Below, piece by piece: positions 6,304-64,000 of a stretch of 64,000 bases of DNA. A program made the translations under genes and the position numbers. Under the pieces are notes generated by a model. It ran no database searches and was not told the DNA's origin. It worked only from the letters and a program-made list of their open reading frames with translations. Origin of the DNA: Halichondria panicea. Lineage: Eukaryota; Porifera; Demospongiae; Suberitida; Halichondriidae. Numbering within the stretch: the stretch's first letter is position 1; each line of letters begins with the position of its first letter. Location of the stretch: contig NC_087393.1 in assembly GCF_963675165.1 (NCBI RefSeq), positions 2,795,502 through 2,859,501 of the forward strand, given 5' to 3'.

Positions 6304-7028
6304 CTAGGGTAACAACTCATAAACAAACCTTTCATGTACATGTATATACTGCTAGACTGTAGTCTGTGTGATTTTGTGCAAGTAGTTGGTTGGAAAATTC
6401 TTCATAAACTGTAAACATTGTAATTAATGTATGGATTACTATACTTCAAGTGTATTTTGTATTTGTTGGTGAACGTTCGTTGCAGCTTTTTTTTTAGCTT
6501 TTTTTTCATATTAAATGGAATATTTAGGTACGATAACAGTTTGGAATTTTCTTTTAAAAAAACCTTGTTCTTGGTTTCCATGGTGTGGAGAAAGATGTAG
6601 GAGATCAGATAACATTTTGAACCCCTCCCACTTAACATCCACACTTTTTGTTACTAGATGGGCGTTTCTTTGCATTGATTTGCTATAAGAGGACTTTGTA
6701 TGGATTATTGGCAAAGTCAGCATGCTTTCTGACAAATGGAAGCACTACAATCAGCTGGCTGCGATACAGAATATCTCGTGCATATAACTTATTTTTTATC
6801 ACAGTCCCTCTGCCATTCACTATAATTATTATGTCAATACTGTTTGAAAAGAATTGGAACAAAAATTAAAATTCTGAGAGTTCTAGTGAGTTTGCACGCA
6901 TGCGCTGGTATGCAAAAGAGGGCGGCGAATTCACTGTTGGTTTTCTGGTTTTCTGCCAGGGACACAGTTTTTTCTACTCCCTCCGATCCCTGGCCTTTAG
7001 TTATTAAGTTATTCACCCTGTGGGAACC
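6304..7028. other. Short head-to-tail spacer between the GABA-B-like receptor and DHX16
   Basis: No supported gene. The spacer must hold the receptor 3' UTR and terminator and the DHX16 promoter and 5' UTR. The 250 bases before the DHX16 ATG are less AT-rich than the rest. Open frames crossing this stretch show no family resemblance. Confidence 0.4.
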
Positions 7029-19120
<12,092 letters not shown>

Positions 19121-19380: not shown

Positions 19381-19711
19381 CTCTCTTGTTTCCATCACAA
19401 CACAATTAAATGTGATATGTGCCAAACCATAGATAAAACTGTGGCACAGTTTACTCTTACATGATCAGATATTGTTCATACCAAATTGTTCACTTGCCCA
19501 GCTTAAAACTTGTACTGTACCAGTATAATCTAATTATGGTGTACTGCTCTCTTGTTTCCATCACAACACAATTCAATGTGGTATGTGCCAAACCATAGAT
19601 AAAACTGTGGCGCAGTTTACTCTTACATTATCAAATATGGTTCATACCAAATTGTTCACTTGCCCAGCTTAAAACTTGTACTGTACCAGTTAATCTAATT
19701 ATGGTGTACTG
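19381..19711. repeat. 166-base direct duplication
   Basis: Two adjacent copies (19381-19546 and 19547-19711) begin CTCTCTTGTTTCCATCACAA and end near TTATGGTGTACTG, with only a few differences. The sequence just before (about 19322) carries the inverse GGAAACAAGAGAGTG. The pair may therefore sit inside a larger inverted-repeat element. Confidence 0.85.
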
Positions 19712-20351: not shown

Positions 20352-20607
20352 TGATCACCACAAATTGATATAGGAAGCTCCTGTATAACCATGCACATAC
20401 CTTCCACACACATTTTGATCACCACAAATTGATATAGGAAGCTCCTGTATAACCATGCACATACCTTCCACACACATTTTGATCACCACAAATTGATATA
20501 GGAAGCTCCTGTATAACCGTGCACATACCTTCCACACACATTTTGATCACCACAAATTGATATAGGAAGCTCCTGTATAACCATGCACATACCTTCCACA
20601 CACATTT
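20352..20607. repeat. 64-base tandem repeat, four copies
   Basis: Units start at 20352, 20416, 20480 and 20544 with TGATCACCACAAATTGATAT and are nearly identical (one C/T change in copy 3). A partial fifth copy and a variant follow. Minus-strand open frames across it exist only because 64 bases cycle through the frames. This is a minisatellite, probably variable in copy number. Confidence 0.95.
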
Positions 20608-21373
20608 TTATCTGCTGATCACCACAAACAGGTGTTGTGCTGGAAGGAAGCTCAAGTGGTGCGGGCTGCATGCTGATCATTAGCCTGATCCCAGGCCTCT
20701 CTTCCTTTTTGAGGCCTTGTGAAGGAGGCTAGCTGATCATGTGCTGCATAGAAATAGAATTAAGAAACCATTCTGTTATTTATAATTTATATTCAAATGG
20801 TGCTGTATTATCTCTAAAACAGTCCTTTGAACCCAGGGAAAATATGTTATGTGATGCTCCTTGCCAATTATAACCATTATTTGTCTCATGCAATATACGT
20901 GTACAATCAAAATCTATCTCTGTATAGCGCATAAACTTTGGCGACGAATTAAGGCGAATCAAGCTAGGTGAGGGTTACCACATTAATTTATTATAATATT
21001 ATATATTAAGATACAATATCTCATATGCGTGATCAATTAACGCCATATGAATATATGCAGCATAATTATGTTTATCAGTTTACTCATTTACCAAATAATT
21101 ATTATGCTCGTCAAATTTTTACTGTAGTCTACTATATTATTATGTGTGGAAATTATTAATTAATTAAATCGATTTTCAAGTCTGCATGGTTTTCCAAACG
21201 ATTTCACAGCACTGAATCTCTCAGCAGATTTTCCAAAGGTAACAAGGAAGAGCCCTTTAGACATGGACTATAATTATATATAGATGGGACCAATAATCGA
21301 GCTTTTTCAATGACCAGAATGAATGGTGGCTTCGTCGAAGTCCATGCACCATTTTTTCTGGATATTATGATAT

Positions 21374-22549: not shown

Positions 22550-24704
22550 ATGAGCAGTTCACAAATCCCTCCATGGGTTAGAAAGGCAATAGACCAACGT
22601 CTTGGTTCTCTAACAAAGAGAAAGGTACGTCGACACCTGGTAGATGTCAGTGTATATAGCTAAATTTGTTTAACATTATAATTATACTATAGCTATTATT
22701 GCAATAGTTGACAACATTAATTTTTAAATCTGCAGGTTCCTGCTGAAGCTAGTTTTGAAGGATTGAGTGGCAAAAAGAATTTATCTCATAAAGAATGGGA
22801 TGATGAGCTCAGTAGTTTCATAAGCACCCTCCTTGTTGAGCAAGAGGCTAACAAGCACCGTCCTCACAAGCAGGCTGTTACCTTTGCTCTTTCACTTTTG
22901 TCCATGTTGAAAGATCGTAAGACCAACGGCGGTAATGAATTATTGATTCATAAGCTTGTGCTTGCTCTTCTTACTCTTTCATTAACACACCCTGAAGCTA
23001 CAAATGCCCAAGGTTTCAAAGGTGTGATTCAAGAAGAAGTGCTAGATCAGTATTCGCATGATGAGTTCCTTCAGGCTTCTGGGAATAAGCTTCTTGATAT
23101 TGCTGAAGATTTGGTTCAGTTGGATCTTTCCTCCCAACCTTTCCAATTTCCTCCATTCCAAAAAGCTCTACCCTACTTTCCAAGCTATGGTTATCAGGCA
23201 ACCCTGGTATTTGCTGATGATAAGCTGGATCAAGATATCCAAAGATCTATTATTTCACTCGTGACTGAGCTCAAATGTAAGAAATTTATGCTAAATATAG
23301 ATGCTCCCTTGTATTTTTTTGCTTACAGTGCTCTGTGAAAAAATCGATCAAAGCCAAAATAGTGCATCTAAAGGAAAGCAAGCTCATTCAGGCTTCAACA
23401 TCGGATTTGATCTTGATTATTGGATTCACTGGTGTCAGCTTCTCAACAAGAAGCCTTCCACTCCTGTGGTGAATGCAGCTAAGATGATGGATTCACCTAC
23501 TGACAACTTTATGAAGAATCAGCCCAAGCTACGCTACACAAATGGTCACGTTTGGTTGTTTCTCAAAGCAGACAGTAAAGAGGACAGTGAGCAAATGTTG
23601 GCAGTGAGTTTGTATAATTTTGCATGTAAGAATTAGGATCTACATAATTATGTAAATACATCCATGACGACATGGAAAGATAACATAGTTAGTTTATAAT
23701 TGTAGTCGAGTCATGGTTTGCACCTCAAACATTCCTGATCATTGCAGATGGTCCGTGCCCATGTTAAGGGTTTTAGGAAGTCTGGCGTATCAGTTCGCCT
23801 GAAGGTAACAGCCGCCTACAAGAAAAACGAAGGGAGAATATTTGGTGGCCAGTTTCAAGATGGAGTGACCAATGCTGTTGATGCCGTGTCGATTGTGAGG
23901 TATGTACTTACCTAACCTTAACATATACAGTAAGTATAGTTATCAAATCCCTCACATGAACCAGTGTTGTATATTTCCAGAGAGGTGGTCTTGCCACCAA
24001 TTCCTTCTACTATGGATACCCCTAACCCTGAAGGAGGCTGCTTTGCTTTTGTTCAGTTCTTCAAGTTTGACAAATCGGCTTTACATGACTATTCCATCCC
24101 TATCTCTGAGAATATGATAGGTCGAGACAGCATGTACAGTGAAACTCTAGCACGACTGGATGATAGATGCCATATCAAGAGGGCCAGGTTGATCAACTCT
24201 AGAGATGGGACCAACACAGAGCTTCTTCGACAAAGTCTACCATTTGTTCCGAGTTCGGATAAAAGCGTTGATCGTGGTCCCATGTCAGAAGGGCTCTTCT
24301 TTGTTGCCTTTGGAAAATCTGCTGAGAGATTCAGTGATATCGTGCAAAATTTATTTGGTCACTCAAAAGCACTGTTCACTGAAGACTTGATGCTGACTCA
24401 TGTGCATGGAATGTAAGTAAATTGTAAATAATTATGAAGAAGTAATTAATTTTGTTCCTAGGTTTGGAAGACTGTTCTACTGCCCCAATACAGTAGAGTT
24501 GGATTCTCTCCCAAAATTCTCCGATGCTGACATTTACCCTGCCATTCCATTCTGGATGAAGTATGTGAGCAAAAACCCTGCTTTCTTCTACAACCACATT
24601 CAGTATCTACATGGGATGGCCACCAACTATGTTCATGGTGATCCTCCATCCAAGAGAATTCTCTATCTTATGAGCGCGCTGTTTGCTCGCTGGCACTCCA
24701 CATG
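22550..24704 (+). other. Exons 1-6: unknown N-terminal region and DyP-type peroxidase domain
   Basis: Exons: 22550-22624, 22736-23276, 23329-23603, 23748-23899, 23981-24412, 24462-24704. The ferredoxin-like N half of a DyP fold starts near YGYQATLVFADD. VWLFLKADSKEDSEQML matches the family's central strand and helix. The distal Asp lies in QFQDGVTNA (D335, aligned to the GxxDG motif, with the first Gly replaced by Gln). The proximal heme His is in CHIKRARL (H412). The distal Arg is in LLRQSLPF (R431), 19 residues after the His, near the 17-18 spacing I recall for bacterial members. GLFFVAFGKSAERF is the usual penultimate strand and helix. All three residues expected for heme peroxidase activity are thus present. 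DyPs oxidise dyes, phenols, Mn or porphyrins; which applies here is unknown. Confidence 0.85.
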
Positions 24705-27700
24705 GTAAGCGTAATGAAAATAGCCAACCTTATTAGACGTTGTATGTTGCACCTAATCAATTTTGTGCAGCACACTTTTTGTGTGCATGGTGATCAGCAT
24801 GCAGATCTGAAATGTGTATGTATACTGGTTGTGCACCATATCCTTCCAGCACACGTTTAATTTATGGAGATCAGCATATTTGCACCAAGTGGTGCACCTG
24901 TAATTTGTAATCAGCAGATCTAAAATGTGTACATACTTATTATGATTAACAGCCTTAATTTGGCATTTCGGGCATGGCTCCTATGTCAATGACGTTGCGT
25001 CCTCTAATATTGGTGGTTTAAAATAAAAATAATAATTTCTCCATTATACTGTATTCATACACTTCTGATCGACGGTACGTATCTATGTGCAGGCCGAGAT
25101 ATGCATACAACTGTTATTAACCCGAGGCCCTCCTGGCCGGGTTAAAGTATAGTCGATCTGTTTGTGTATTCTGAATATGCACTTAGTGGTATGTTTACAG
25201 CATCGATAGCAAATATAATATCAGATTTTCGAATAAAAGCTCCGTTGTCGAATAAAAGCAAAAACTAGAACTTACTATACACTAGTTATAGTCCATATGT
25301 GGCTTTGTTTCGAGCAGTTTTTGCAAAGTGTGCCTCGGAATTTGGAATGATTGTATGTGTCTATTATAAGGGACTATCAAATAAAATCTGCGAAATGTTT
25401 ATCTGCCAATCTCAAAATAATTATATGCATGGTCCTCCGAAATATGGCACTATGAATTATTATTCTGAGAAACACATTACAGAAAATATTGATTAGCTAC
25501 CTATAGATAAAACACCAATAATCTAGTAGCTAGCTAAAGTCTATTTAAATTGTGTTGAGTTAAGGCATACGCATTCAAAACCCGAACTTCTATCATCATC
25601 ATGCATGCATAGATTTATGCTTCTACCTCAAGATCATCAAATTTCTGTTCCCATTAAGCTCCTAGCTTTTCTAACACTTTTTGACCATTCCTGAGGCACT
25701 CGAGTACTTGAACTTATAGGCTGGGTGTAGCATAATTATATAGGCAGTTTCTTTAGAAAATTATATCATATGTTATTATTATTATAGGATTCACAAATTT
25801 GATGTTCCACGACTACCGCATTTGAGCGAATTTCTTCGTGAAGATGAGAAAGGAATCATGGATCGCCCTATTCAAGTTCGAAAGGGCTATAGCTACAAGA
25901 AGATGTTGGGAGAGGTGTTCACTAGTGACAAGTAACTATATGCAAATACTTACATGTATGACTGTTGAAGCAAAAATAATTTCTTACTTCAGGCGTGTTC
26001 CTAACTCTTCGGGAAAGATATATGGCTTTTCCGAAAACTTTGATACCTACCGGATTGATCCGAAGGTTTGTGTGCGATATCTTCTAATGTGTACATATAT
26101 ATAGGTATAAATTATATACTTACAGCAGTATTTGCATGCATGCGCATGTAGACATGCACCATAATATTATTATTACAAGTAGTCTTGAATTTATACACTG
26201 CTTTATGCATAATCGTCACAGGATCTGATTGTTGGGGTCACTGACAGACTCTCTTTTGGAAGTGGCAAAGAAGTGATGCCTTACCTCAAGGAGGGTGCTG
26301 AGATGGATCTATCCCTTGGTCTAGGTCTCACTGAGGCTGGGAACATGGGCCACATCGTTCCTGGTCATCACTACATCTTGGAGTTGGTATGGAAAATAGT
26401 TAACTTTTCCTCTGCTTGTCGTCTAAAGGTTATAGCTTAGTGTGGTATACAGTACATGCACATGTGTGTGTGTATAGTGGAACATTTCTGCGCTTTAGGG
26501 TCAACCAAACCTGCTTGTAAAATTTGCATTGTACGTACAGGGCGTGGAAGGAATGATTGAGAAGCTAAGAAAGTTAAGCAAGAACCCTAATCTTGCTGAT
26601 CAACAGCTGTTCTATGAGAGTGCCATTCATTCTTTCGAGGTAATACATGTGTTTGATATAGAAATAAGAGTGTATATATAGTTGCTATATAATCTTATAA
26701 TTATGTATGATTATAGGGTGTACAACAGTATATGTTGCGGTACAGCAACCTAGCGAGAGAAACAGGACAGAAATTACACACATCTACATCACAGGCCAGG
26801 TGGGATTCCACTGTTAGACTTAATTGTCAGTGTTCACAATTATCTCATTTCATCCAGTGATCGTAAGAATATGAGGGATATTGCCAACCGTATGGAACGT
26901 ATTGCCCATGGCCGTGACTCGAAGGATTTTTCTTTCCAGTGAGCACCAATATAAATAGGCAATCTTGTTGAATTTTAACTAACCAATAATGTTGCGTTTC
27001 ACAGTGATGCTGTGCAACTTGTGTTTTCCATGCATTGCTGCCTCCATCTTGTGGGCCAGGCTGTGTCTGTGGGCAGGCTAGACCAACTTGTTATAGCCTT
27101 TTACCGAAGAGATGTCAAAAACAAAATGCTCACCGAAGAAAAGGTTTCTTACTAGCTGATTTGCTAAATATACTGTTCCTGCATGCATCCCTATTATAGC
27201 CATTTTTGATTCTCCCATCTACAGGCACAAGAGATTATTGACGCTTTCTTCATCAAGTTCGATGAGCATGCTGTGCTAAATCGCTACAACATCCCTTATG
27301 GGCACACTACATATGGGTCTACATGTGTGACTGGCAGAGGAGGTCCTTTCCCAACTGGAGACTCTTTGAACCAATGGATTCAACAGGTTAACGGTTATAA
27401 TTGTTGTACACATGCAGATATCACATTACAGCTATTCCAAAATCCAGATAACAGTTGGCGGTTACCTAGAAGATGGTTCTGATGGTTGCAATGAAATAAC
27501 CTTGATGTGTCTGAAGGCTTGTCGTCGCCTCCCGCTTAATGCCCCTTGTGTATCTCTGCGACTTAACAGCTTAACACCCGAAGCTGTAAAGATGGAGGCA
27601 GCTAAAGCTTTGCTGAGTGGCGGAGCTCACCCAATACTCTTCCATGATGATAAAATGGTTGATGGTACGTTGTCCATGTAAGCTAGCTACATGCAGGAAC

Positions 27701-30700
27701 TCAGTTGCACGTTTCTTTATTATAACCATTCAGGGTTATATGAGGTGTTACGCCAGTCTTACCTGCGTTCTGGTCTCCAAGAGCCTGATGACCTGAAAGC
27801 AGTGGCCAGAGGTTATTCGTGTGATGGTTGCTATGAGCCCATGTTCACTGGAAGATCAGAGTTTAAATTTGCGTATATCGACCTATTAAGGGTATGTTTG
27901 CATGCCAACATGCAATAGCATGTATGTTCTGATGAAGAATTGATCTGACAAGTATGCACGAATCCCTACTCAGTTTATCATAATTACCCCGTGCATGTGC
28001 AACAAGGGTAGAGTGATTAGTGTGTGTGTGTCGGTATGTGTGTGTGTGTGGACACAAAAATGAACTGTTTGAGCAAACTAGACACTGTCAATGGACTTCT
28101 TTAACTGCTAATGAATGAGACAGTAGTGAAACATAATAGGTTACATGTATGCTTTAGTATAGCTGAAACTTGTAGGCGATCTTCGAAAACGACAAAAAAA
28201 CATGGTTTTCTGATCAAATTTTGCTTTATAGATCCACAATCATTCCCCATAATGAATAGGGTCATTACGATAAAAAGGTATTGTATCGTTTTAAGCTCGT
28301 TATTTTCGCGTCCTGTTACACGTGAAACGTTCACTGTATAAGCTGTTTATTGCAAAAGCCAGTGCAGCAAATCACAACTTTATCTCTGGCATCATTTAAA
28401 GCAATATTTAAAAACCGTATTACTATAGATCTAATGTTTTATGAACTCTGATTTTGCGAGTTTTGATCGTTTTGCGAAAACCTATATCGATACTTGTAGG
28501 ACATCACGATCCTTTCTAGAACGCAAATGTAATTAATTAGATGGCAAAGATGGATGATTTGGGTTTTTCACACGCAAAATATTCTAGCTACTGTGCTATA
28601 TAGCTTGATGTACGTATATACATGTATAGGTTCTTATATTATTGATGCCCAGTGCACTACTATAATTATGTACATTGGCAGAATACAGGAACAGTGCACT
28701 CGCTTGTATAGGGATTCATTCATGCATGTCAGGCCTCTTGCTTGGAGTCTGTTTTTTTCTGTAACTGTAATTTAGTCACCTCGATCTTCTTTACATGTAG
28801 GCTATCATCTATTCACTAAACTCTGGGGCAAACTATCAGGGTGCCGGACCACTCTTCCTTGCTGGTGGAGTATCTTCTTACAGAACTGCATTGCCAGAAG
28901 ACATCCACACTTGGGATGAATTTAAGGTAGTATACATAATTATACATGTAATACGCGCACATGTATATAAATATAATTACTCTATGAGAGTTATACTTGG
29001 GTGCATACAATTATAGTGGTTGTGGGACAGGCTATTGGCGTCCTCAAAATAATCCACTTCCCTGAGTATAGAATTATGATTTTGCTGCAGGCTATTTTCA
29101 GAATGCACCTCAAGCTGCTTGTTCAGAACCTGTACAACCTCATTTTGGGTGCATATGGGAACCCTTGGAAAATCTGTCCCTCACCATTATTGTCGTGTCT
29201 ACTGGAGGGATGTGTGGACAGTGGCACGGACATGACTAATGGTGGATCAAGGTATATGGCTGTACATGTATATTAACGTCTAATTGTGCCCTTTTAACAG
29301 TAGTACATTGCAAGTAATAGATATAGCATGAGACCGATTGTTGTATACAATATACAGGCACAAACCCGATTGAGGGTTAGCTGCCTGTATATTGCATGGG
29401 ATTCTCATGCTTCGTGTTTTATACCACAACAACCGTACCAAATTTTGCCTAGAGGCTACGTGATCATGTAATAAAAAAATTACACAGAAAGGACCAGCTG
29501 TATGAATTTTTTATATAATTATGGTTGCATCTACTAATAAATATCTCACCTACTAGATTCCATATCCTCACCCCAATGTACGTTGGGTTTGCCAACGCTA
29601 TAAACTCGCTCTACAACGTGAAGAAAATGGTGTACGATGAGAATGACGTTACCACATTGGAAGATCTCAGGATGGCTCTAATCAACAACTGGGGAGAATC
29701 GTAAAATTAATTGCATATGATGTATATAATAATTATGACATGTGCCTTATAGAACTGTGGAGCCATTCTATGATGAAATTGGTGTGGGTGTTCTGCACAG
29801 TACTATGTCAGCTGAGCGCTTCAAGGAGCTTCGTGAGCATGCTCTTTCTCTTCCTAAATTTGGAACAGACACTGCTGATGACGAGGTAAAAATGTATACT
29901 GTTAAAATGCGTAGCATGCATTTATGAAAGCCGTTCATTGCAGATCAATGATATTGCTCTATGGTTGGCAACTGAGATGAATGAAATTGCTTATGAAGCT
30001 CTCTATGAAGAAGGAAACATCTCAAAAATGTATGAGGATCTAAAAAAGAAACACAGTGTGCCTGGGAAACCTTTTCTTTTCCAAGTGAGCTAACCTCAAG
30101 AGTAAAAAAATTAGCTGGCAAATTTACCACCCATGAAAGGTTATGACAGGGAGTGGTACATTCGAGAGTTACTTCAGTGTTGGTGCTGGCTGTGCTGCTA
30201 CTCCAGATGGGCGTCTAAACGGACAGCCAACTGCTTCAGATTGTAGTCCGCAGCCATTTGCACAAGTAAATATACTCAATGTGGTTACACTGCACCTGCA
30301 TATAAATGTATTATCAATTAAGGGCGTATATATACGCCCTTGGTATTATTTATGGTGTTATTTATACTTTGGGCCGTAGCCGCAGGAGGTATACATACGG
30401 TCAAGCTAGTTGTTTGTGTGTGCATGTGTGTGTGCATTTGCACAGGCGCTTGATAATTTTTACACAAATATACAGGATCGCCCAGTGCCAACGGTGAACC
30501 CAATGGACATAGTGGATACATTGAAGCCATACAACAAACTAAACCTTGACAAGTAGGCTTTTAGATTTATATATAAAGTACAATTAATATTGTTGTATAT
30601 AGGTTAATTCCAAATGGATGTGAAGTGGATTTGACAATCTGTGAAGAGTTTCCGATTGAATCACTACTGGAGTTTATGGAAGCCTTTATCAAGGTACTAA

Positions 30701-30940
30701 TTAATGTTAACTGCATAGTACGTTAATAACACATACTCCATATAGAGGCAAACAGGGTCTAACCTTGTGACAGTGACCTGTGTGGACTCATCAAGCATTC
30801 AAAGGGCTGTGAACGAGCCGCAAAAGTTTGATCTGGTTAGGAATAGAATGGGAGGCTGGAGCAACTTCTTTGTGTCTATGTTTTCTGGGCACCAAAAGCA
30901 GCACGCACGTAGACCAGTGTTTGGGCCACATATGAATTAA
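22550..30940 (+). CDS. DyP-type heme peroxidase fused to a glycyl radical enzyme
   Basis: Twenty-five exons with consistent GT-AG junctions and phases sum to 4233 bases, exactly 1411 codons (1410 aa). Residues 1 to about 165 are helical and unrecognised. About 170-510 resemble dye-decolorizing peroxidases. From 573 to the end is a full-length GRE barrel plus radical loop. The start ATG at 22550 is the first in frame, and no signal peptide or membrane segment follows, so the product is probably cytosolic. The predicted chemistry is peroxide-driven heme oxidation in one half and thiyl-radical chemistry initiated by a glycyl radical in the other. The substrate is unknown. The gene is flanked by DHX16 and SHPRH and has the same intron style as they do, so it is not a bacterial contaminant. 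A bacterial origin of at least the GRE half by old transfer is inference. The main alternative is two genes split in the 1.1-kb intron 6. Confidence 0.88.
24705..25787 (+). other. Intron 6, the seam between peroxidase and GRE halves
   Basis: This 1083-base phase-2 intron is the longest in the gene. It splits a Trp codon (TG then G) and keeps the frame from FARWHST into IHKFDVPRLP. It contains a weak copy of the CCCGAGGC dispersed repeat (about 25115-25265) and AT-rich sequence. If the two halves were separate genes, the terminator and second promoter would have to be here, but no in-frame ATG precedes the conserved GRE sequence within exon 7 except one at MDRPIQ. Confidence 0.8.
25788..30940 (+). 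other. Exons 7-25: glycyl radical enzyme domain
   Basis: Exons: 25788-25931, 25993-26065, 26222-26386, 26541-26639, 26717-26799, 26858-26938, 27005-27143, 27225-27386, 27448-27664, 27734-27891, 28801-28926, 29091-29251, 29557-29700, 29753-29885, 29944-30084, 30140-30265, 30476-30552, 30603-30693, 30746-30940. Family landmarks appear in the right order: DLIVG; GHIVPGHHYILELG; TVGGYLEDGSDGCNEIT; the active-site GCYEP (C993, E995); CPSPLLSCLLEGC with TDMTNGG; ATPDGRLNGQPTASD; and the radical loop RMGGWSNFF (G1383) 27 residues from the end. About 838 residues is the usual GRE length. The single Cys followed by x-Glu places it with the dehydratase, C-N/C-S lyase and decarboxylase GREs, not with pyruvate formate-lyase, which uses paired cysteines. 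The acceptor before exon 22 (AAAG) has a weak pyrimidine tract. Confidence 0.92.
29325..29410. repeat. Imperfect inverted repeat in GRE intron 18
   Basis: GCATGAGACC...ACAATATACAGGCA at 29325-29360 pairs with TGCCTGTATATTGCATGGGA...TCATGC ending at 29410. A small hairpin element wholly within the intron. Confidence 0.6.
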
Positions 30941-36500: not shown

Positions 36501-39500
36501 TTGCCACAACTCAGCTGAATTCTCTCCAGCTTAACTGCGACATTGTTAATTGTTATAGACTCAAAATTGCATGACTTGCTTGCGAGGAGTAATTATTGTT
36601 GCAGGCTCCTATCCTTATACATACTGCGGTTTTCACATTAATTTTTATAACACTCCTCTTGAATCGTTGTGTATAGAGCTGCAGTTTATAATAAAATATA
36701 CTATTTTGCCCTTCCAACTTTTGTACAGGCTCAGTCTATGTCAGTGTATCTGACGCTATTAATAACTTCTACAAGGAGGTGCAAACCAAACAGAGTAACA
36801 AGTCTCCGGTTAAAAGTTCCATTGCAATGATCTCCCCTTTTGGTCTGTCCGCTACTCTCCGCAGTTACCAATGCAAGGCTGTGAATTGGATGATAGGGAA
36901 GGAGGAGGAGTGTAAGCCTGGTGGAGCTTGTGACAGGAGTGAGGAGTCTGGTGGTTGTGATGGTGAGGGTGTTCACAAGCTGTGGTGGAGGTTGCCTACA
37001 TCAGACGAGGAAGTATATTTCAACTCCTTTTCTGGAAAGTGAGTCAGCAGAAGCATTACATTTTTGTTCACTAGTATTCTATACAGTTGGCAGTTGTATA
37101 TTCCACCTGGCATGCATATGGTAATGGCTCTACGTTGTTGAGGACTATAGTTGTATCTTACATGCCAGAGGTATAAATAACACATCTTGATTGTCTTGAC
37201 AAGTTGTCCTAGCATAATACGTTTTGTTCTGCCATCAGATGATATTGGTCGGACACTAAATTACCCACGGATGCAATGTCCTTAGTAATCTCTATAAACA
37301 CAGTTTAGGTAGGGTAAAGTAATGCTTAATTAATAGTAGCTTACCTAGTCGTCTCGTCACTCTGTTACATAGCTATAAAATTATATAAGCCTGCTCTTGT
37401 GCAATGAACAAATACACATGGCTGATATGAGATCATTAATTTAGTGCGCATGCGCATCATACTATGGCCTTTGGCCTTCAATCTTCGCATGCTAGGACAC
37501 TATGACCAAGCAAGTAGCTAAATGGTCGGTCAAATAGGCTAATTGCTCGGAAATTGACCGATGACCGACTATTATTTATTCCTCTGCATGCAGCTACATA
37601 ATGTTGAGGCTGGAGTAGATGTAAGGTAAAGTTATAGGTGTAAACTGTTGCACAATGTGTTAGGGGGTTAGGGTTAGCCATACTATACTCAGGATGGCTC
37701 GCAATTGCACCTAATTAGTATCGCATTTGTGTGCATTACTCTAGTAGTGATGTCATAATAATTTCAAATTACAAAAGCACTTCACGTCATCATGTTGTTA
37801 GATTCTCAAGGCAGCGATTCCCAGTTGCTCCCTCGCCAAAGGGAGGCATTCTGGCAGACGAGATGGGTCTTGGAAAGACTGTTGAGATTTTGGCTCTCAT
37901 TCTGGCTCACCCATGGCCAGGTGAAAAATCAAAGAACAGCTCTTGCTCGAACTCTTCTACTTCTGAAAATGTTGAACAGAGTGCTGCAGTTGAGGAAAAA
38001 ACGAAATTGCTTTCTGCAGACATTCAAGGCACAGACAGTAAAAGAAGTTGTACAAATCTTCAACACAAGGAGCTTTTGACAGAGTTGGCTGCGCATGAAG
38101 GCCAAAAAGTGTTTGAAGCACAATCAAGCCCTAGTGACATCGCCAGAATGCAAACTGGCGTCAAATTAGATGATGGTGCCCCTCTACCTCATGTTGTAGA
38201 TTCTCATCGACCACACGAGAAAAGGCCGGCTGTCTGCATTAAAGATACTGATAGTCCTTCAGATGTCATTCAGTGTCTTTGTGGAGCCATCAGTGACCAT
38301 GGTTATGAGGGTGAATTTGTGCAATGTGAGTTGTGCCTCGTCTGGTTCCATACTATCTGTGTCGATTACTCTTCCCAAAGACATGGAGAACATTTTTACT
38401 GCGTGCGGTGTCTACTGGAAAATGTTAGTTGCAGCAATACATGTATAGTTCTATGTAGCATACCTCATTTACATGACTCATTCAGTCCATCTTATAAGGT
38501 GTATATCGAGTGCATGTAGTTTCAGAATTTATATTAATTGTGTGTTTATGATTAATGTATCAATGCCTTTACCCAGCCCCTGCCGTGTGGAGCGACTCTG
38601 ATTATCTCACCTCAGGCCATAGTTCAACAATGGATGGATGAAATAACCAAGCACACACAGCCAGGAGTTATCTCTGCCTATGTGAGTATCGCACATGTTT
38701 GGTTTCCGGCCCTGTTGTTAATTGTGCATTAATTAAATAGATGTACCAAGGCATCTCTCGAGGCAGATGTGTGTCTCCCCTTGAGCTTGCTCGCTATGAT
38801 ATTGTCATAGTATCGTACGAGACCCTGTGCAACGAGTTTTATTATGCTGTGAGCCATGAGATGTCTAAGAACCTTCGAAAGAGGAAGCGTTACTACTACT
38901 CACCTAGCCCCCTACCGGCTTTGCTATGGTGGAGGGTGAGCAGAAAAGACATACATTCATGCACAGTCTGCAAAATACTTTGCTGTTAATCTGCATTTAC
39001 TATACACCCTTGCATCTAATTAAGCTGCTCTGAAGTAGTAAGGCATAAGTTGGGATTGTGTATAGCATTACCCTTAATAAACAAGTGCTGTGTATATTAT
39101 ATAAGTTACTGGGACATGGATAACTGTCGTGTCAGCAAAGAAGCATTCGTATGCCAGCATTGAAACAAAACCCGTGGTGTGGCTCCATGTGTATGTACAT
39201 GTAGTGCGCATGTGCTTAACTGAAGAGCCCTGAGTTTCAACTAGCTATAATAGTTAGCAAGCTTCAAGCTTCATGACTTTACTTTCTCGTAAACACACTC
39301 ACTGCCGTACTACCACCTAATATTGTCTGTTCTGGTTAAAGGAAATAGAATTGTAGCCCAGGAGGGGTAAATATTATTTTATTGTTAATTGCCACACCTT
39401 AGAAGCACCATACTTTTACGCTGGCAGGTATAGTACATATATGTATCTCACAGGTTACTCTGGATGAAGCCCAGATGGTGGAATCCACCAACGTGAGGGC

Positions 39501-42500
39501 TGCAGAAATGACCAAGAAACTGAGTGCAGTCAACAGGTGGTGTGTGACAGGCACACCTGTGCAGAGGCAGCTGCTCGGTTAGTATGACTGCATGTAGGTA
39601 GTACTCATAATATTATATGTACGTGTTTGAGCTGCTATTTATATGTAATTTCATGTACTGTACGTTGTAACCCTCTTGTAAGCTTTGTTGTTGTCGGAAC
39701 CATGTTTAGATGCATCGCTATGTTTGTCTTCTTCCAGACCTGTATGGCCTCCTGCTGTTCCTCAAGGTAGACCCGTACCTGCACTCTACTTGGTTCTCAC
39801 GACTCTTATGGGAACCCTACCTCAATGGCAACAGTTGTCCCATGGTAGAACTCTTCGCTGAGGTCATGTGGAGAAACTCAAAGGCTGATGTAGCTAGTGA
39901 GGTGAATATGGGTCTTGGATCATTTTGAATCAACCTACGTGTGTACTTTATAGATAATAATTAACGCCAAAAGCCCTCTTCTATTAATCTACCTATACGC
40001 CAGGATGCAATAGGATATGAAGTAGTGTATATACATAATTCTATACCAACAAGTTCAGCTCACGTCATGCATGTATCACAGTTGTGCCTGCCAGGCCATT
40101 CAGAGGAGGTTCACTGGCTACAGTTCAGCTCAGTAGAGGCTTATTTCTACCAGAGACAACAAGGAAAGTGTCACACTGACCTAGAAAATGTGATACGCGG
40201 GCTGGCCCCTGGTTGTACCCTCTCCAGCCTTGAACAGGCCACCTTCCACAAGGTGCAGGATTTATTAATACAGGATTTTTAGCTGGGGGAGTTGAAACGT
40301 ATGGTGATCCAGGGGCATTCTGTTGTAATTTGGGAGATGTTTTGGGCGCTTTAAATAATTATTTTGGTTACTAAAACACCCTTATAATAGTTTTTTACTC
40401 TACCTGATATTATTTTTGATGCATTAGACTATGTCAGATGTGTCATGACTATGTCCCAACTATCAGGTATACATGCCATATGTATCTTATCCAATAGTCA
40501 TCTCTGTTTCGCTCCAGCTGATGACTCCCCTACATACTCTGAGGCAAGCCTGTTGCCACCCCCAACTGGTTCGCAGTGGCTCCTACCTACCGGTCAGCAT
40601 GGGAAACAAGAAGTAGGTAGCAGTCTGAGTATGCGCGTGTAGAGAGATTACATGTGTACTTTAACTACATGTACATAGAGTAATCTTTGTTTCCAGAGCT
40701 GACACCGTTAATTCTTAATTATGCCTCGGGGGAGGGGGGCGTATAGCTGCATAAGTATTATGATAAAGCTGATTGTATGTTTGTGTGTGTGTGTGTTCCA
40801 GCTGTAATTATGTCTCAGTTGCGCATGCGCAGCAAGGTATACTGCTAGTGGTGGGTCTGTCTGTGTGTCTATAATAATTATGTTTTAATTTCTAGAAGCT
40901 TCTATTTTTTAGCGACGTTTTCTTTGAATTTGATGCGTGTATTTTTTTCTCGAGATATAGCTAGTGTTACGAATCTCTTTCCAGAATTGTGCGTAGCATT
41001 CTATGTGGATAAATTTTGAGTTGGTCTCCCACTAGAGCTGTATATATTTCGTATCATGTACAAGAGTGAGAAAAGAGCTACAGAGCTTCGTTCAATACCA
41101 GAATCAGCAACCATTGTGAGCTTTGCGCATGCATGCTGTAGACACCACTTGTATTGAGGCGGTGCTTGATTCCGTGAAGTAAGGATCTACGTGCTTAGCA
41201 CCTTTTTTTAATTATTTAATTGATAGTTGTCAAAGCTTGACTGAGAGATCTCTCTGGTTATAATTATATTATAGTTGTTGCTTGCCCCATGTAGCTACAT
41301 TACCATGCCACGACTTCTTGAGAAGCTGACATCCCAAGCCAAAGTGGAGGCAAGGGAGGCCCTCAGGGCAATGGTAGCTGCACTCAACGGCCTGGCTGGC
41401 ATTTTCATCATTCAAAATGATGTAAGCAGGAATATGTATGTAATATACTTAATTCAGAGCATATATGCACATACATTGTTGAATGCCTGTGTGAGTCCCA
41501 AGCTCACGTGTCTAAACTCTGGACCATAATTATTTCAGTGATTCATTTCAGTGCATGTTGACACGTCTGTAAATCCATATGCCTTTACCCATACAGTTGT
41601 TTACAGCATCAACCTGCTACAGAAGGGCAATGACAGCATGGCAGGAGCACCAGAGTCATGACATAGACTGTGACAAGCTCCAACGCATACACACAATGGA
41701 AAATCTTGCGGAGCTATTGCAGCGTGGATTAGTGGGATATGAACATTCCCTCAGGGACAGTACACTAATGGAAGAGGTGTGGTCTCAGTGTTCTTGCTAA
41801 CAGTGTGATATACGTATTGGTCAATGGCACTTTTAATTATGGGTGGGCCCACTGGAACTACATGTATGTCAGCACGCTTTGTCTTCGTATTAACTTTCTT
41901 CTAGCTATTGCCTTCCTCATTTGAAAAACAACCACCTTAGTCTTACTCTTATGTACATGTATGTTTTGTGTGTGTATTTAGGCGGTTGCTCTGAGATCAC
42001 AGTACACGGAGAAGGTGGAAAGTCAGGTGAAGGTTGCAGCAGAGGGACTGTTTGTTACCAAGAATAACATTGACTTGGCTCAAAGCGAGGTGAGTCTTGC
42101 AATTGAAATGACAAGCATAAGTCAACAATATTTTAGTCACATAATCATGTTTGTCTCTCTCTAGTGCAACTGGATGCAAGCTGGCTTCCTCGAGGAGATA
42201 CCTGCCGAACTTCTAGAAGAGGTTGCCATGGCCTCAGATGGTCAGTCCACTGCTGAGGGAAAAGAGAGTGTAGGAGACAAAAATATTTCCCAGAAGGAAA
42301 CTGACACTGACACTACAGCTTGTGAAAATGACCAGGTTGTGAAGCCAACAGAGCTGTCTGAAACGGAGGCATTAGGCAAACAATCCCAAGGTGAACAATC
42401 AGAATCAATCGACCTATCTGATGACCTGGCTATTGAGAGTAGCCCTGTTAAAAACAAGAAGACTCAACCAGAAGTGAAGAAACCCAGACCTCGAATTGTA

Positions 42501-45500
42501 AGTTTCACATACAGGTTACGTTTCTCAATGTGGCTCACCTTAACACATAATTATTCACAATTAGACTCCATCTCAGCCATGGTGGGTGAGTGTGTGTAAG
42601 TGGCTGTGTGGGCATGGTCTTGATGAGGAGTTGGTCGCAGCTGTGAAGATAGAGTGTGAGCAGGGAGCAAAAGTACTTGCAAAATCTATTCCACGGTAAA
42701 TATTTTAATCGTTAGTATAGACATACACACTTGAACTTAAAATCGATTCACTGAGTGAATTTAAATAATTATAGCAGCAACTTTCTAAATATTTTTGTGA
42801 AAGTAATTATGCAACAAGGCAGTGTTTTCGAGTATTCTTTGAGCATTATACAGTTGAGCCTCGGTTATCCGAACACCTTTGTCCCCGGGCCCATTCGGGT
42901 AAGTGAAATATTCGGATAATCAAAAGCTGGCTTTTTGCCAGCCACGTGGGCAATTTCCTACTGCGCATGCTCAGATTGCACTATGCTCTAGCATTCGGAT
43001 AATCGAGGATTCGGATAACCGGGATTCGGATAACCGAGGCTCAACTGTAGTTCAATAATAGTGGCGGTCACTTGATCCCAGCTTTGTTCTACAATCCAGC
43101 GTAACAATTGATACAGTGACTCATACGGACAGTGACGGTCTGAAATGTTTCTTAATTGTTTCCCCCACCCATTTTATGTTGACAGTATTAGAGCAGGAAG
43201 TACATAATTCTGTGCTACCTACTTTCTGCTCTTTTAAAGTCGACATAAAGTGGGTGAAACAGTTACGTACTTAAAATTGTTTTCCTTCACCAGGTTCTCT
43301 GACCTCAGTGGCATCAGTTACTATATTACTGACCATGCAGATAAGACTCAGGTAAATGAAGAGCAAATGTAAAATTAATGTTCTGGTCACAGGAATTAAG
43401 TGCTATCTATATACAGCTAAGTTTTAGTATACTGGACTAATTCTGTGCGTACCGTCCTTTACTGTATCCTACATGTAATAAAAACGCCAAGTCCTTTGCT
43501 CCAATTGACTGTATGTAAATTTTTGCACTTTGGTAATTAAAAAGAAATTGCCTGAAATTGAGGCAATTTCTTTTCTAATACAACTTTACAGCCTTGGAAC
43601 GGCTTCACGTTCTAACTCTAAGCGCCAAATTTTGTTTTCTCAGTACGCCACGGGCGCTGATTTGAAAAAGACGCTATAATAAATACATTAATTGCCAGTT
43701 TCGTATTCAGTTGTCGAAGTCTTGCTCATGTTCTAAAGTCATAACAAAGCAATTCCATTGAGCATTATAGTTTTGCTTTACCTTGCAGTCTACTCGTCAA
43801 TGTGTGATCTCCCTCCTTGACGATCTCTGTACCAGCCCTATCTCCCGGCTGATTGACCACGCCTCTTCCTGTCACCTCCGACCAGAGCCAGATTCTGACT
43901 CGAACCGGGATGAGGTTGAAAAGCAACTGTAAGCTCGAATTGTTGTTTAATAGGGCTAGATAGGCCCTTTGTAGGTTTTTTTGCACTAGGCTGTTGTAGA
44001 TTTGCTAACTAGTGTAAACATAACACTAGTTAGCAAATCTACAGCCTATCTATTATTGTGTTTTACATTGTCGTTACATAACTATGTTTGAGCAGCTGTC
44101 TGCTATGTGTGACTGAATCTAAAACCATTTCCTATGAGAGACAGCTGTTTTCCGATTATGAACATGATAAGTGGGCTGAGCAAACGTCCCATGAACATGG
44201 TGGAGGGTCCCGCAAGCCCAGTCTGATGGAAAAAATCATTAAGACATTATGGTCCTACTCGAATAGGCAAAAAGGTGATGATCTAACAGAAACTTGGAAC
44301 TATACGTCGCTATTGTACATGTACAATTATTATTATTATTGATGTATAATACGTACTGTGTATTCACCACAACATTGGTCAACCAAACAAATCACACGGC
44401 AAAATTGGCCTTGGTATATGTTAGGGGGTATTTTTTCTGTGATAGGAAAATGGGAATTCGACATTCTTTTCACCCACACCGAAGCATACGAGATTGAAAT
44501 TATTAGTTCTTTTTCTCTAAGGATTTCCCAAGAAACTTCAGCAATCTGGGCAAGCTTACCTGAGCTACATGGAAGAATTAAAGAAAGAATACACTGTGAG
44601 TGAATGATTTCTAGACTTTTATTAAATTATGATTGCATTAGCTGGCATGCCATCAGATTATCTGTTCCGCTTAACCATAATTGTTATACAGGCCATTCGC
44701 AGTCTTTGGCTTACCTTGGACCGGAGATTGAGAGTCCATGATGAGTTGGACATGGCCTCTACCAGACTGCGTAAAATGGCACGGGAGGAAGTCTACAGTG
44801 GTAGAGAGATTTCCTTTGCTATACATCCAAATCAGGTGACAATGATTGATTAAGAAGAGACCTACGTAGTTCAAGGAATTGATGGAGATTTTGTTTTCAC
44901 CTACTACCTACTAATGCAAGCTTTGTACCTGTACCACCTTAGGTATTACAAAAAATGTATCAGTTTGACTCTGAGAAGGATGTAGCTGAGCGTGACCTTA
45001 AAAAGTGTGTCGGCCAAGTTCTATATCTCAAAAACCTTGCAAAGGTAACATTACAACTGAATCTAGTTCCTATGCGTAGTTCCTAGTAGACGCAGAGGTA
45101 TGATGGTATAAAGCTGTTCTTGTGTGTGTGTTGTGTGTGTTTGTCGGGTGCATGTGTGTTGTAAAGTGCTCAACGGTTGGAGTACGTGCTAGTACAACTA
45201 AAGCTTCTCTAGGCTCCTAGTCACATTTTTTTAGGTTTTGATTAATGGACTGACATGTATCTTCATAATCTTTAACCGTAAACGATACTGTTCAACCAAA
45301 TGTGAGCTTTGCAAAAATTAGGTACATGTTCTCGCAAATACAACTGATTGTTTTCCTGTACAGAAAAAATGTGTTGAGGAAACATGCCCAGTGTGCTCCC
45401 AAGCCCTCCACACGGAGGTGAGTCAGCCAACATGTCACTACATACATATCTACGCACAAAGTTTTTGTTTAAATTAGTTTTCTTATTACAGCATTCTAGC

Positions 45501-47365
45501 GTGTCTTATATGTACATGTGTGTATACTTATGGTAACCCCAGTCCCTTCACATACAGTGGGCCGTCTTTTCTTGTGGACACCCTCTATGTGTGGACTGTA
45601 CGTCATCTCTCATTCAACAGCAGCCTCACTCCCATTACCAACCATGTGTGACTGTTAAGTGCCCTCTCTGTAGAGAATCGTCTCGCATTTCAAATGTAAA
45701 CTATGTGCGAGAAGGATTGGAGGAAGGTTATCGAGAGGATATTCCAATACAGGGCTGTCACTCTACCAAGGTTGCAGCAGTTGTTCGTACGCTGCTTCAT
45801 ATTCAACAGAGTGAACCTAGATCAAAGTGTCTTGTGTTCTCAACTGTAAGTATAGGGAAGGGGGTGTTTTATCTCCACAATACCACTCGATCTGTACATT
45901 AAATTGTTTCATGTATATCTGTTATAGTGGCTGGATGTACTTGACATTATTGCTGCTGCCCTTGGAGTTAACAACATAGACTACCGATTCTTGAAAACCA
46001 AGAAAACTTTCCAGGTTTGCTAGTGCATGCCCAACACCTCACACTTCAAAATGTACTTAAACGCTATTGCCCCCAGGAGAATCTTGCCCATTTCAAAAGC
46101 TCTCCTGACACCAACGTCCTCCTATTGCCGTTCCACTCAGGGTCAAAAGGTCTAAATATTGTGGAAGCCTCCCATGTCCTCCTTGTTGAGCCACTTCTCA
46201 AATTGGGGGTTGAGCTACAGGCCATTGGGCGCATACATCGCATGGGGCAAACCAGGTTGGAACAGTGTACATTTTAAATTTGACATTGCATTCTTAAACT
46301 CGGAATGTATATCATGCACTTATAATTATTGTGATGGATACAAGCACTGTGTGATGTGTGAATCAATGTGTGGTAGAACTGAGTGTATAATTATTTTGTT
46401 CCACATTATAATTATTGTATCATGTCATGATGTGCCTGTGCCCGTTGTTTATCATCTCCAGACCAACGAAAGTCCATCGTTTCCTGGTGAGCAAGACTGT
46501 GGAGGAAAAGATTCATGTTCTCCTTAAATCTCAGCCAGACAAGTGTCGGTGAGTGTGTATATATGTAAAAAGACTATTAAAAGCAGCAGAATTTTTTGGG
46601 GCGGCGCAGAAATCGAATGGAGAAAATTAATGGCCACATTCAAATTGTAGCTTGGAGGCGAGTGCATAATTAGAGCTAAGACCGTTCATTTCTGGCACTC
46701 GCCTTTGTTACACTTTTTATGGAAGTGCACCTGCATATAATTATGTATAATAAGCAGTGTATGAGCCTCAGTGTCCTAGTATACTTTAGTAGTTGTAGTG
46801 ATGATAGTCATGACTTTGTGTACATTGCCATGTTTATGAATTATTAACCCGAGGCACGTAGGCGACAGGTTATTGTATAGTCCATTGGTTTGTCTGTTTG
46901 GGTTTGCTCACCTGGCTGCCATGCATAGCACTGCATGCGTTTACAGTTTACAGCATGGCCTCCACACAACAAGTTATTAGTTTAATACGTGGCAGATTAG
47001 CTTCTCTTGCATGTTGGCTTAGTTTGAGGCACCCCATTACACGTGTGGTGTACAGCAGATCCTACAAATGGTCCATGCAGAACTCCCATGCAGAAAGATG
47101 CCCTATTATGTCGTTTTCAAAGCCTTGTCACAATGTTTTTAATCTGATTTTGCTCTGTATAGTTCAAGTTTCATTTCCCTCTATAGGTTTTCATGTGCAT
47201 ACATAGATCTACTAGAATCAAAATCATAATATACTTGTAAGAGGTCATAATATACAACCGCCAAGGTTTTAGCGATTATTAGTTTCTTATTGTTTCAACA
47301 GACGAGAGAAGGAGAGTGAGCTGGCGCTGACACTGTCCGACATCAGAGATATGATCGAGCTATAA
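32596..47365 (+). CDS. SHPRH: SHPRH-like SNF2 helicase / RING E3 ubiquitin ligase
   Basis: Twenty-seven exons join in phase into 1655 aa (an ATG at 32593 would add one Met): 32596-32779, 35448-36110, 36729-37038, 37802-38423, 38577-38681, 38741-38935, 39454-39577, 39738-39901, 40082-40252, 40518-40612, 41295-41421, 41597-41776, 41982-42089, 42165-42497, 42565-42695, 43294-43351, 43789-43928, 44096-44274, 44522-44595, 44692-44835, 44943-45044, 45364-45417, 45558-45845, 45928-46014, 46077-46255, 46462-46548, 47302-47365. SNF2 motif I is DEMGLGKT (K411), box II DEAQ, motif [11 protein letters not shown], motif [17 protein letters not shown] finger (544-589) is inserted between motifs I and Ia. 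A C3HC4 RING (C1411 to C1459) splits the second RecA lobe, the diagnostic SHPRH layout. In vertebrates and yeast (Rad5-like) it acts in the nucleus in DNA-damage tolerance by ubiquitinating PCNA and remodelling chromatin. The linker-histone H15 domain of vertebrate SHPRH is not seen. Confidence 0.95.
33432..33760 (+). repeat. Dispersed repeat with (TG)n, copy 1 (SHPRH intron 1)
   Basis: Starts TGCCTCGG, has a GCGCATGCGC segment and a (GT)n run (33475-33506), then TTCTCTAGTATGTG-like sequence and ends AGAGTGAGAAGAGAGCTGCA. The same order of blocks is found at 40724-41095, and a relative in reverse orientation at 60780-61190. Interspersed family of unknown class. Confidence 0.6.
33812..34800. 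mobile_element. Mutator-like MITE in SHPRH intron 1
   Basis: The ends AGAGATATTCGAGAGAGGGG and its inverted counterpart CCCCTCTTCTCGAATATCTA share a GTGGGAAACG inner block. Nine-base flanks GCTTTATGC (33803-33811) and GTTTTATGT (34801-34809) are a target duplication with two transitions, suggesting an older insertion than the one at 16108. No transposase. Same end style (purine-rich, then GGRAACG) as the other two elements. Confidence 0.75.
35027..35190. repeat. Inverted-repeat element (MITE) in SHPRH intron 1
   Basis: Arms AAAGGGGACTGGCCAGGTGA plus CTATCAA at 35027-35054 and the near-perfect inverse TTGATAGTCACCTGGCCAGT plus CCCTTT at 35165-35190. The interior is about 110 bases of AT-rich sequence with no frame. 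Confidence 0.8.
40724..41095 (+). repeat. Dispersed repeat with (TG)n, copy 2 (SHPRH intron 10)
   Basis: Shares with 33432-33760 the CTCGG start, a GCGCATGCGCA block, a short TG run, TTCTCGAG and the AGAGTGAGAAAAGAGCT end. Diverged and with indels. Confidence 0.55.
42851..43047. mobile_element. pogo/Tigger-like MITE in SHPRH intron 15
   Basis: The 197-base element has inverted termini CAGTTGAGCCTCGGTTATCC(GAA) and is flanked by TA on both sides. This terminus and the TA target are characteristic of pogo/Tigger elements of the Tc1-mariner group (established knowledge). The interior carries further TTCGGATAA motifs. Non-autonomous. Confidence 0.88.
43542..43576. repeat. Short perfect hairpin in SHPRH intron 16
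   Basis: AAAGAAATTGCCT and AGGCAATTTCTTT pair around a 9-base loop. Possibly a structured intron element or a MITE relic. Confidence 0.6.
43989..44046. repeat. Near-perfect palindrome in SHPRH intron 17
   Basis: GGCTGT followed by TGTAGATTTGCTAACTAGTG pairs with CACTAGTTAGCAAATCTACA followed by GCC, around a loop of about 7 bases. It fills a third of a 167-base intron. Confidence 0.75.
46849..47030 (+). repeat. Dispersed CCCGAGGC-type repeat (SHPRH intron 26)
   Basis: Starts TTATTAACCCGAGGCACGTA, then GTATAGTCCATTGGTTTGTC and a CACCTGGCTGCCATGCATAG block. Block order matches 47535-47738 on the same strand and 14925-15195 on the opposite strand. Confidence 0.55.
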
Positions 47366-63917: not shown

Positions 63918-64000
63918 CTGCAGAATTCAGTAAATAAATTGTACAAGCTTTCTACTTACTGTAATGTTGGACATTAAAAGTGAAACAAGCAATGTTAGTG

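Follow-up and report, generated by a model that had tools for sequence, protein, structure and literature searches.

The window analysed here, a 64,000-nucleotide stretch of the Halichondria panicea genome, carries a gene in which a DyP-type heme peroxidase and a glycyl radical enzyme (GRE) are joined in one chain. This DyP-GRE fusion is confirmed as a genuine, complete and intron-rich animal nuclear gene, and its ancestry is probably bacterial. Ordinary GREs need an oxygen-labile radical S-adenosylmethionine (SAM) activase, and a recognised GRE activase is nearly absent from the bacterial carriers of the same fusion. The reading we favour, tentatively and at close to even confidence, is that the DyP half uses peroxide to start the radical of the GRE in place of the activase, giving a self-contained radical enzyme. 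Its extension to a whole clade, namely that GREs with an R-x-G-G-W motif, DyP-fused in three bacterial phyla and the animal, have on at least two independent occasions exchanged the activase for a heme peroxidase and are peroxide-switched, is held more cautiously, as a possibility falling somewhat short of an even chance.

Structure and authenticity of the animal gene

Rebuilt from the DNA, the gene keeps its frame through 25 exons and 1411 codons including the stop, encoding 1410 amino acids, in agreement with the original prediction. All 24 introns are of the GT-AG type with a median length of 73 bases, the sole stop codon is terminal, and the frame across exon 22 is restored by an acceptor at 30140 (the boundary between ATGAAAG and GTT). 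Within exon 6 alone the DyP region ends (FYCP) and the GRE region begins (YNH...FARW..TW), making the fusion independent of intron 6; a transcript ending in that intron, once regarded as evidence that would undo the fusion, therefore has no such bearing. Exons 2 to 25 can be aligned to bacterial fusion proteins, some of them weakly, with exons 10, 21 and 23 among the weakest, and no clear counterpart of exon 1 and approximately the first 160 residues was found in the bacterial fusion proteins compared. Introns 6 and 16 are far longer than the median, and two tandem repeats lie 5' of the gene (Table 1).

Pfam identifies Dyp_perox_C (PF20628) at residues 333-503 (E 2.2e-15, over the cut-off) and PFL-like (PF02901) at residues 679-1214 (E 2.4e-91), while the NCBIfam models TIGR01413 (91.5 bits, slightly under its cut-off of 100.5) and TIGR01774 (192 bits, under its cut-off of 678) match below threshold. 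The peroxidase and PFL-like domains named in the original prediction are thus found, and the third, Gly_radical, did not fire: the animal protein shows no match to it, and all five bacterial fusions scanned either score under its cut-off or show none. The glycine motif itself is present as the variant RMGGW (R1380-W1384), with the glycine retained. A PF01228 (Gly_radical) profile search of the animal genome gave zero matches, the DyP-GRE gene included, probably reflecting a diverged domain split between exons, and such negatives in the animal genome are therefore weak.

Both halves retain their catalytic residues: H412, R431, C993, E995, R1380, G1382, G1383 and W1384 are identical in all 25 rows of an alignment of the animal protein with 24 bacterial fusions, and the distal acid at position 335 is aspartate or glutamate across the same rows. 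The animal DyP distal motif is GGQFQDG, differing in spacing from an exact GxxDG. Of the columns that do not vary among 25 bacterial fusions, 134 of 168 in the GRE half and 27 of 41 in the DyP half are unchanged in the animal protein. Among solved structures, the best match is the diol dehydratase 5i2a (E 7.5e-41). Cys-x-Glu loops belong to GREs that are dehydratases and lyases, and the loop of the animal protein (GCYEP) is of this type, which points to a dehydratase or lyase reaction rather than pyruvate formate-lyase (PFL) chemistry. Structure models were made for a bacterial relative trimmed to 1200 residues (predicted local distance difference test, pLDDT, 55.6) and for its DyP part (pLDDT 62.5); in Foldseek searches with these models, the predicted DyP part matches DtpB and the predicted GRE matches diol dehydratase, each with probability 1.00.

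The genomic setting is that of an animal. The protein has 25 matches in the 131 Mb assembly, all at a single place on a 5.74 Mb contig, and GC content along the window ranges from 0.37 to 0.43 in 4 kb steps. The assembly contains Wnt genes and the 14 prokaryote controls gave none, identifying the host as an animal, and animal-type gene pieces flank the fusion on either side; the SNF2, PHD and RING-like pieces downstream are presumably SHPRH-like. The Pfam domains, exon 6, the Wnt genes and the flanks together bear out the claim that a DyP and a complete GRE are fused in an animal nuclear gene.

Table 1. Positions of the exons, flanking features and bacterial loci discussed in the text
Feature	Sequence	Positions	Strand	Remarks
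Whole gene	window	22550..30940	+	25 exons, 1410 aa DyP-GRE fusion
Exon 1	window	22550..22624	+	aa 1-25; without clear bacterial counterpart
Exon 2	window	22736..23276	+	aa 26-206; N-terminal extension, DyP from about aa 161
Exon 3	window	23329..23603	+	DyP
Exon 4	window	23748..23899	+	DyP; distal acid D335 (23859-23861)
Exon 5	window	23981..24412	+	DyP heme pocket; proximal H412 (24171-24173), distal R431 (24228-24230)
Exon 6	window	24462..24704	+	aa 492-573; DyP end and GRE start
Intron 6	window	24705-25787		1083 bases
Exon 7	window	25788..25931	+	GRE N-terminal region
Exon 8	window	25993..26065	+	GRE
Exon 9	window	26222..26386	+	GRE
Exon 10	window	26541..26639	+	GRE
Exon 11	window	26717..26799	+	GRE
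Exon 12	window	26858..26938	+	GRE
Exon 13	window	27005..27143	+	GRE
Exon 14	window	27225..27386	+	GRE
Exon 15	window	27448..27664	+	GRE
Exon 16	window	27734..27891	+	GRE active-site loop DGCYEP; C993 (27829-27831), E995 (27835-27837)
Intron 16	window	27892-28800		909 bases
Exon 17	window	28801..28926	+	GRE
Exon 18	window	29091..29251	+	GRE
Exon 19	window	29557..29700	+	GRE
Exon 20	window	29753..29885	+	GRE
Exon 21	window	29944..30084	+	GRE
Exon 22	window	30140..30265	+	GRE; frame kept by acceptor at 30140
Exon 23	window	30476..30552	+	GRE
Exon 24	window	30603..30693	+	GRE
Exon 25	window	30746..30940	+	Glycyl radical loop RMGGW: R1380 (30845-30847), G1383 (30854-30856), W1384 (30857-30859); stop
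Tandem repeat	window	19381-19711		166 bases x 2
Tandem repeat	window	20352-20612		64 bases x 4.1
Class C G protein-coupled receptor, PWI-domain (below cut-off) and SRCR pieces	window	5577-6131, 7008-7508, 63433-63951 (-)		Domain matches
SNF2, PHD domains, then RING-like piece (below cut-off), in order	window	37719-45899	+	Domain matches
GRE and DyP pieces	L002 (Hymenobacter plasmid)	8061-11999		GRE in two overlapping frames, then DyP pieces in two frames
R-x-G-G-W GRE with own activase	L058 (Bacteroidota)	6148-9808
R-x-G-G-W GRE with own activase	L059 (Bacteroidota)	6689-10077
SUMF1/EgtB/PvdO-type gene	L001	6714-7718		Directly 5' of fusion
SUMF1/EgtB/PvdO-type gene	L057	3800-4762		5' of fusion, one reading frame apart

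Bacterial fusions and the search for activases

Full-length relatives of the animal protein are scattered over bacteria. A tblastn search of plasmids revealed a 1326-aa fusion in Asticcacaulis and, in Hymenobacter, a GRE with DyP pieces next to it, and a scan of genome contigs yielded 23 full-length DyP-GRE fusions, carried by Acinetobacter, Pedobacter, Burkholderia, Trinickia, Actinoalloteichus, Shewanella, Marinomonas, Hahella, Rheinheimera, Chromobacterium, Flavobacterium, Taibaiella and a gammaproteobacterial metagenome-assembled genome. Two more were obtained from sampled genomes, namely a 1209-aa fusion (locus L036 of genome G270) among 398 Pseudomonadota and a 1304-aa fusion (locus L057 of genome G1043) among 395 Bacteroidota. 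The fusion occurs patchily across phyla, which points to its lateral transfer. The animal protein is 30-36% identical to bacterial fusions overall, L036 being the nearest (36% overall, 41% in the GRE part), and the two are joined with support of 87/85 in the GRE tree and 91/91 in the DyP tree, the animal branch being long and flagged as unsure. No second relative was detected in 385 genomes of the class of G270 at E <= 1e-40, and the viral contigs searched gave no relative.

The architecture itself is already known, contrary to the original prediction, which had seen no report of it. PMC5041501 describes a DyP-PFL fusion in the fungus Chaetomium cochliodes, notes, with reference to a 2014 encyclopedia article, that the fusion is also present in prokaryotes and eukaryotes that are distantly related, and infers transfer of the fungal fusion from proteobacteria; the fungal gene is induced 3-fold by hydrogen peroxide and 18.5-fold by peroxyacetic acid. 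Full-text literature searches gave, among the matches listed, no other description of a DyP-PFL fusion, no animal or sponge GRE of this kind and no peroxidase-started GRE, and the DyP and heme-peroxidase papers searched by term did not mention a PFL fusion. Neither the animal copy nor a swap of activase for DyP appeared in these searches. To our knowledge, the animal DyP-GRE gene would be the first known.

Activases were counted in whole genomes as matches over the cut-off of the radical SAM profile TIGR02494. The fusion set comprises 25 genomes (the 23 from the contig scan, G270 and G1043), with the plasmid records L001 and L002 standing outside it, and the comparison set comprises 15 genomes matching profile A3 at E <= 1e-20 without a DyP-spanning match; G406, with a GRE piece interrupted by two stops and no activase over the cut-off, belongs to neither. 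An activase occurs in two of the 25 genomes with an intact fusion (2/23 in the scan, none in G270 or G1043) and in 14 of the 15 whose GRE has no fused DyP (10/10 and 4/5), a difference with a Fisher p of 7e-8. Both positive carriers, Shewanella abyssi and Chromobacterium alticapitis, have the activase directly beside an ordinary PFL with an RVSGY motif, and the sole negative comparison genome, G1076, has a GRE frame of just 428 aa. Additionally, in a further sample of Bacteroidia, a frame with a radical SAM motif lies in the examined flank of nine of ten ordinary GRE genes.

The animal genome, searched exon by exon and hence with limited sensitivity, gave just two TIGR02494 matches of about 20 bits. 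A radical SAM domain search recovered five genes, in pieces, which match LipA, MoaA, Elp3 and two MiaB-type families and which we take to be LIAS, MOCS1, ELP3, CDK5RAP1 and CDKAL1, along with one further unclassified match of 18 bits; no GRE activase was seen among the five in this exon-by-exon search.

Phylogenetic analysis places activase and DyP as alternating partners within one group. The trees used 13 (GRE), 11 (DyP) and 26 (a further tree) of 27 fusions. The 20-row GRE tree groups the fused proteins with Hymenobacter, L057, L058 and L059 (support 100/100) and separates them from four ordinary GREs, of which three carry a long-branch flag. Where aligned, the C-terminus of this clade reads R-x-G-G-W, as opposed to R-V-[SA]-G-Y or R-M-A-G-Y in the ordinary GREs. 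Within it, L057 is sister to L058 and L059 (100/99): L057 has a fused DyP in a genome without an activase over the cut-off, and L058 and L059 have an activase over the cut-off directly adjoining the GRE, with no DyP-like stretch found on the surrounding 16-17 kb. The DyP tree, built from 11 fusions and seven free DyPs, splits with support of 100/100, at a point where long branches meet according to a program warning, into one side with the L057 DyP and long DyPs (Gloeothece, Nonomuraea, Bradyrhizobium) and another on which the main-clade DyPs join short DyPs. By BLAST, the L057 DyP matches Gloeothece at 258 bits and no main-clade DyP below E 1. As its DyP is of another class than those of the main clade, DyP probably joined this GRE clade twice, with a dedicated activase unseen both times.

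The uncharacterised GREs of L058 and L059 do not reach the cut-offs of the NCBIfam GRE models matching them, and possibly have a new GRE function. The Hymenobacter plasmid stretch represents either a GRE-DyP pair that is not fused or sequence of low quality; its DyP pieces, chiefly the C-terminal one, resemble the long DyP class, evidence that counts for little because the gene is broken in the record.

No positionally conserved neighbour across genera was seen at the loci of the 23-fusion contig scan. Among the 30 largest neighbour clusters, each of three or more loci, the cross-genus clusters are the fusion itself and one family of 321-356 aa, 25-27% identical between genera and aldo/keto-reductase-like by eye. 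Present in Acinetobacter, Pedobacter cryoconitis and Flavobacterium at distances that differ between genera, this family was taken as a chance neighbour. A SUMF1/EgtB/PvdO-type gene lies 5' of the fusion at two loci (Table 1) from very distant bacteria, the copies being 45-49% identical; tblastn found none at the other 28 of 30 loci, and the gene was dropped from the mechanism as a general partner.

Proposed mechanism and alternative explanations

In the proposed mechanism, the DyP domain would bind heme and react with hydrogen peroxide or an organic peroxide to form a ferryl compound I, from which the oxidising equivalent would pass to the GRE domain. A radical would be made on G1383, or directly on C993, as the iron-sulfur/SAM activase does in ordinary GREs, and C993 would then abstract a hydrogen from a substrate in the barrel. 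By analogy, the fusion would work like class I ribonucleotide reductase, with an oxidant-dependent radical generator driving a thiyl radical in a barrel of the same kind. In favour of this reading count the retained catalytic residues, the scarcity of recognised activases in the bacterial carriers, the change of partner within the GRE clade, the Hymenobacter GRE lying unfused beside DyP pieces, the lack of a conserved neighbour across genera in the contig scan, the five animal radical SAM genes, which include no GRE activase, and the induction of the Chaetomium fusion gene by hydrogen peroxide and peroxyacetic acid. The oxygen-protected radical system suggested in the original prediction is possible, yet a peroxide-started radical is preferred over it because most of the carriers searched have no recognised activase. 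The accompanying idea of an adaptation to oxic and anoxic swings in sponge tissue finds no support, given that the same fusion occurs in bacteria such as Acinetobacter and Pedobacter, which are aerobes.

Several observations weigh against the peroxide-started mechanism and its extension to the clade. The carriers are phylogenetically non-independent; collapsing the fusions to approximately 14 genus-level lineages, with the comparison genomes not collapsed, gives 3/14 positive (Trinickia counted as such) and p 1e-4. Trinickia has an activase-like piece below the cut-off (73.6 bits, in a 136-aa frame), and Shewanella abyssi has a second activase-like frame (130.7 bits, also below the cut-off), which adjoins a GRE-like frame with RVTGY; the remaining 22 fusion genomes score at most 38.1 bits among the matches listed. 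An activase may have been missed in the animal, where the exon-by-exon search recovered five radical SAM genes only, and another radical SAM enzyme outside TIGR02494 could be the GRE activator. Clade members found without a DyP number just two, the trees carry long-branch and composition warnings, and both structure models are poor, serving for fold search only and giving no placement of heme relative to glycine. Moreover, Chaetomium has a putative PFL activase according to PMC5041501, and at least one carrier may thus use an activase.

In a rather unlikely alternative, close to the idea of the original prediction, an unrecognised radical SAM enzyme would activate the GRE and the DyP half would only remove peroxide or gate the enzyme by redox state. 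The putative Chaetomium activase (PMC5041501) is its main evidence, joined by the need of ordinary GREs for an activase, the Trinickia piece and at least weak TIGR02494 matches in 20 of 23 carriers, possibly to other radical SAM or to ferredoxin-like proteins. Against it stand the near absence of activases over the cut-off (two of 25 carriers, both beside an ordinary PFL) and the alternation of activase and DyP inside one GRE clade.

The lack of a recognised activase in most carriers would also fit a GRE half that has lost its radical chemistry and serves the peroxidase as a scaffold or substrate-binding part, for which the main evidence is the failure of Gly_radical to reach its cut-off or be seen in the five bacterial fusions and the animal. 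We consider this unlikely, as C993, E995 and G1383 are invariant in all 25 rows and conservation is higher in the GRE half than in the DyP half. An assembly chimera, contamination or mis-splicing of neighbours is extremely improbable: no sign of the chimeric locus that the original prediction had allowed for was found and nothing supports it, while the 24 in-frame GT-AG introns, the exon spanning both domains, the GC content, the animal-type flanks and the single place in the 5.74 Mb contig all oppose it.

Significance and comparison with known systems

GREs are regarded as anaerobic enzymes dependent on radical SAM activases. If true, replacement of the activase by the DyP half would represent a second way to start a glycyl radical, with a peroxidase in the activase's place, and would explain the presence of GREs in aerobes. 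It would parallel the split between class I and class III ribonucleotide reductases, and would provide a glycyl radical enzyme of the oxygen age that an animal cell could use.

The closest known system is the DyP-PFL fusion of Chaetomium, other fungi and bacteria (PMC5041501), which likewise has an N-terminal DyP and a C-terminal PFL/GRE in one chain. The present gene differs in being an animal gene with 24 introns, with kinship shown to bacterial fusions only, and whereas that report assumes radical SAM activation, the bacterial carriers here are mostly without a recognised activase. With the Cys-x-Glu GREs (diol and glycerol dehydratase, choline trimethylamine-lyase, hydroxyproline dehydratase), the fusion shares the barrel fold, the Cys-x-Glu loop and the C-terminal glycine, but it carries R-x-G-G-W instead of R-V-[SA]-G-Y, a fused heme peroxidase and no adjacent activase. 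Short-class DyPs (encapsulin-cargo, DtpB and YfeX type) share the proximal histidine, the distal arginine and acid, and the same side of the DyP tree (100/100); the fusion, however, has the distal motif G-x-x-F-x-[DE], with two extra residues relative to G-F-x-D-G, and lies within a protein of 1200-1400 aa. Class I ribonucleotide reductase pairs an oxidant-dependent radical generator with a thiyl-radical barrel; in the analogous arrangement proposed here, a heme peroxidase would stand in for the metal/tyrosyl subunit, with the C-terminal glycine of the GRE type retained.

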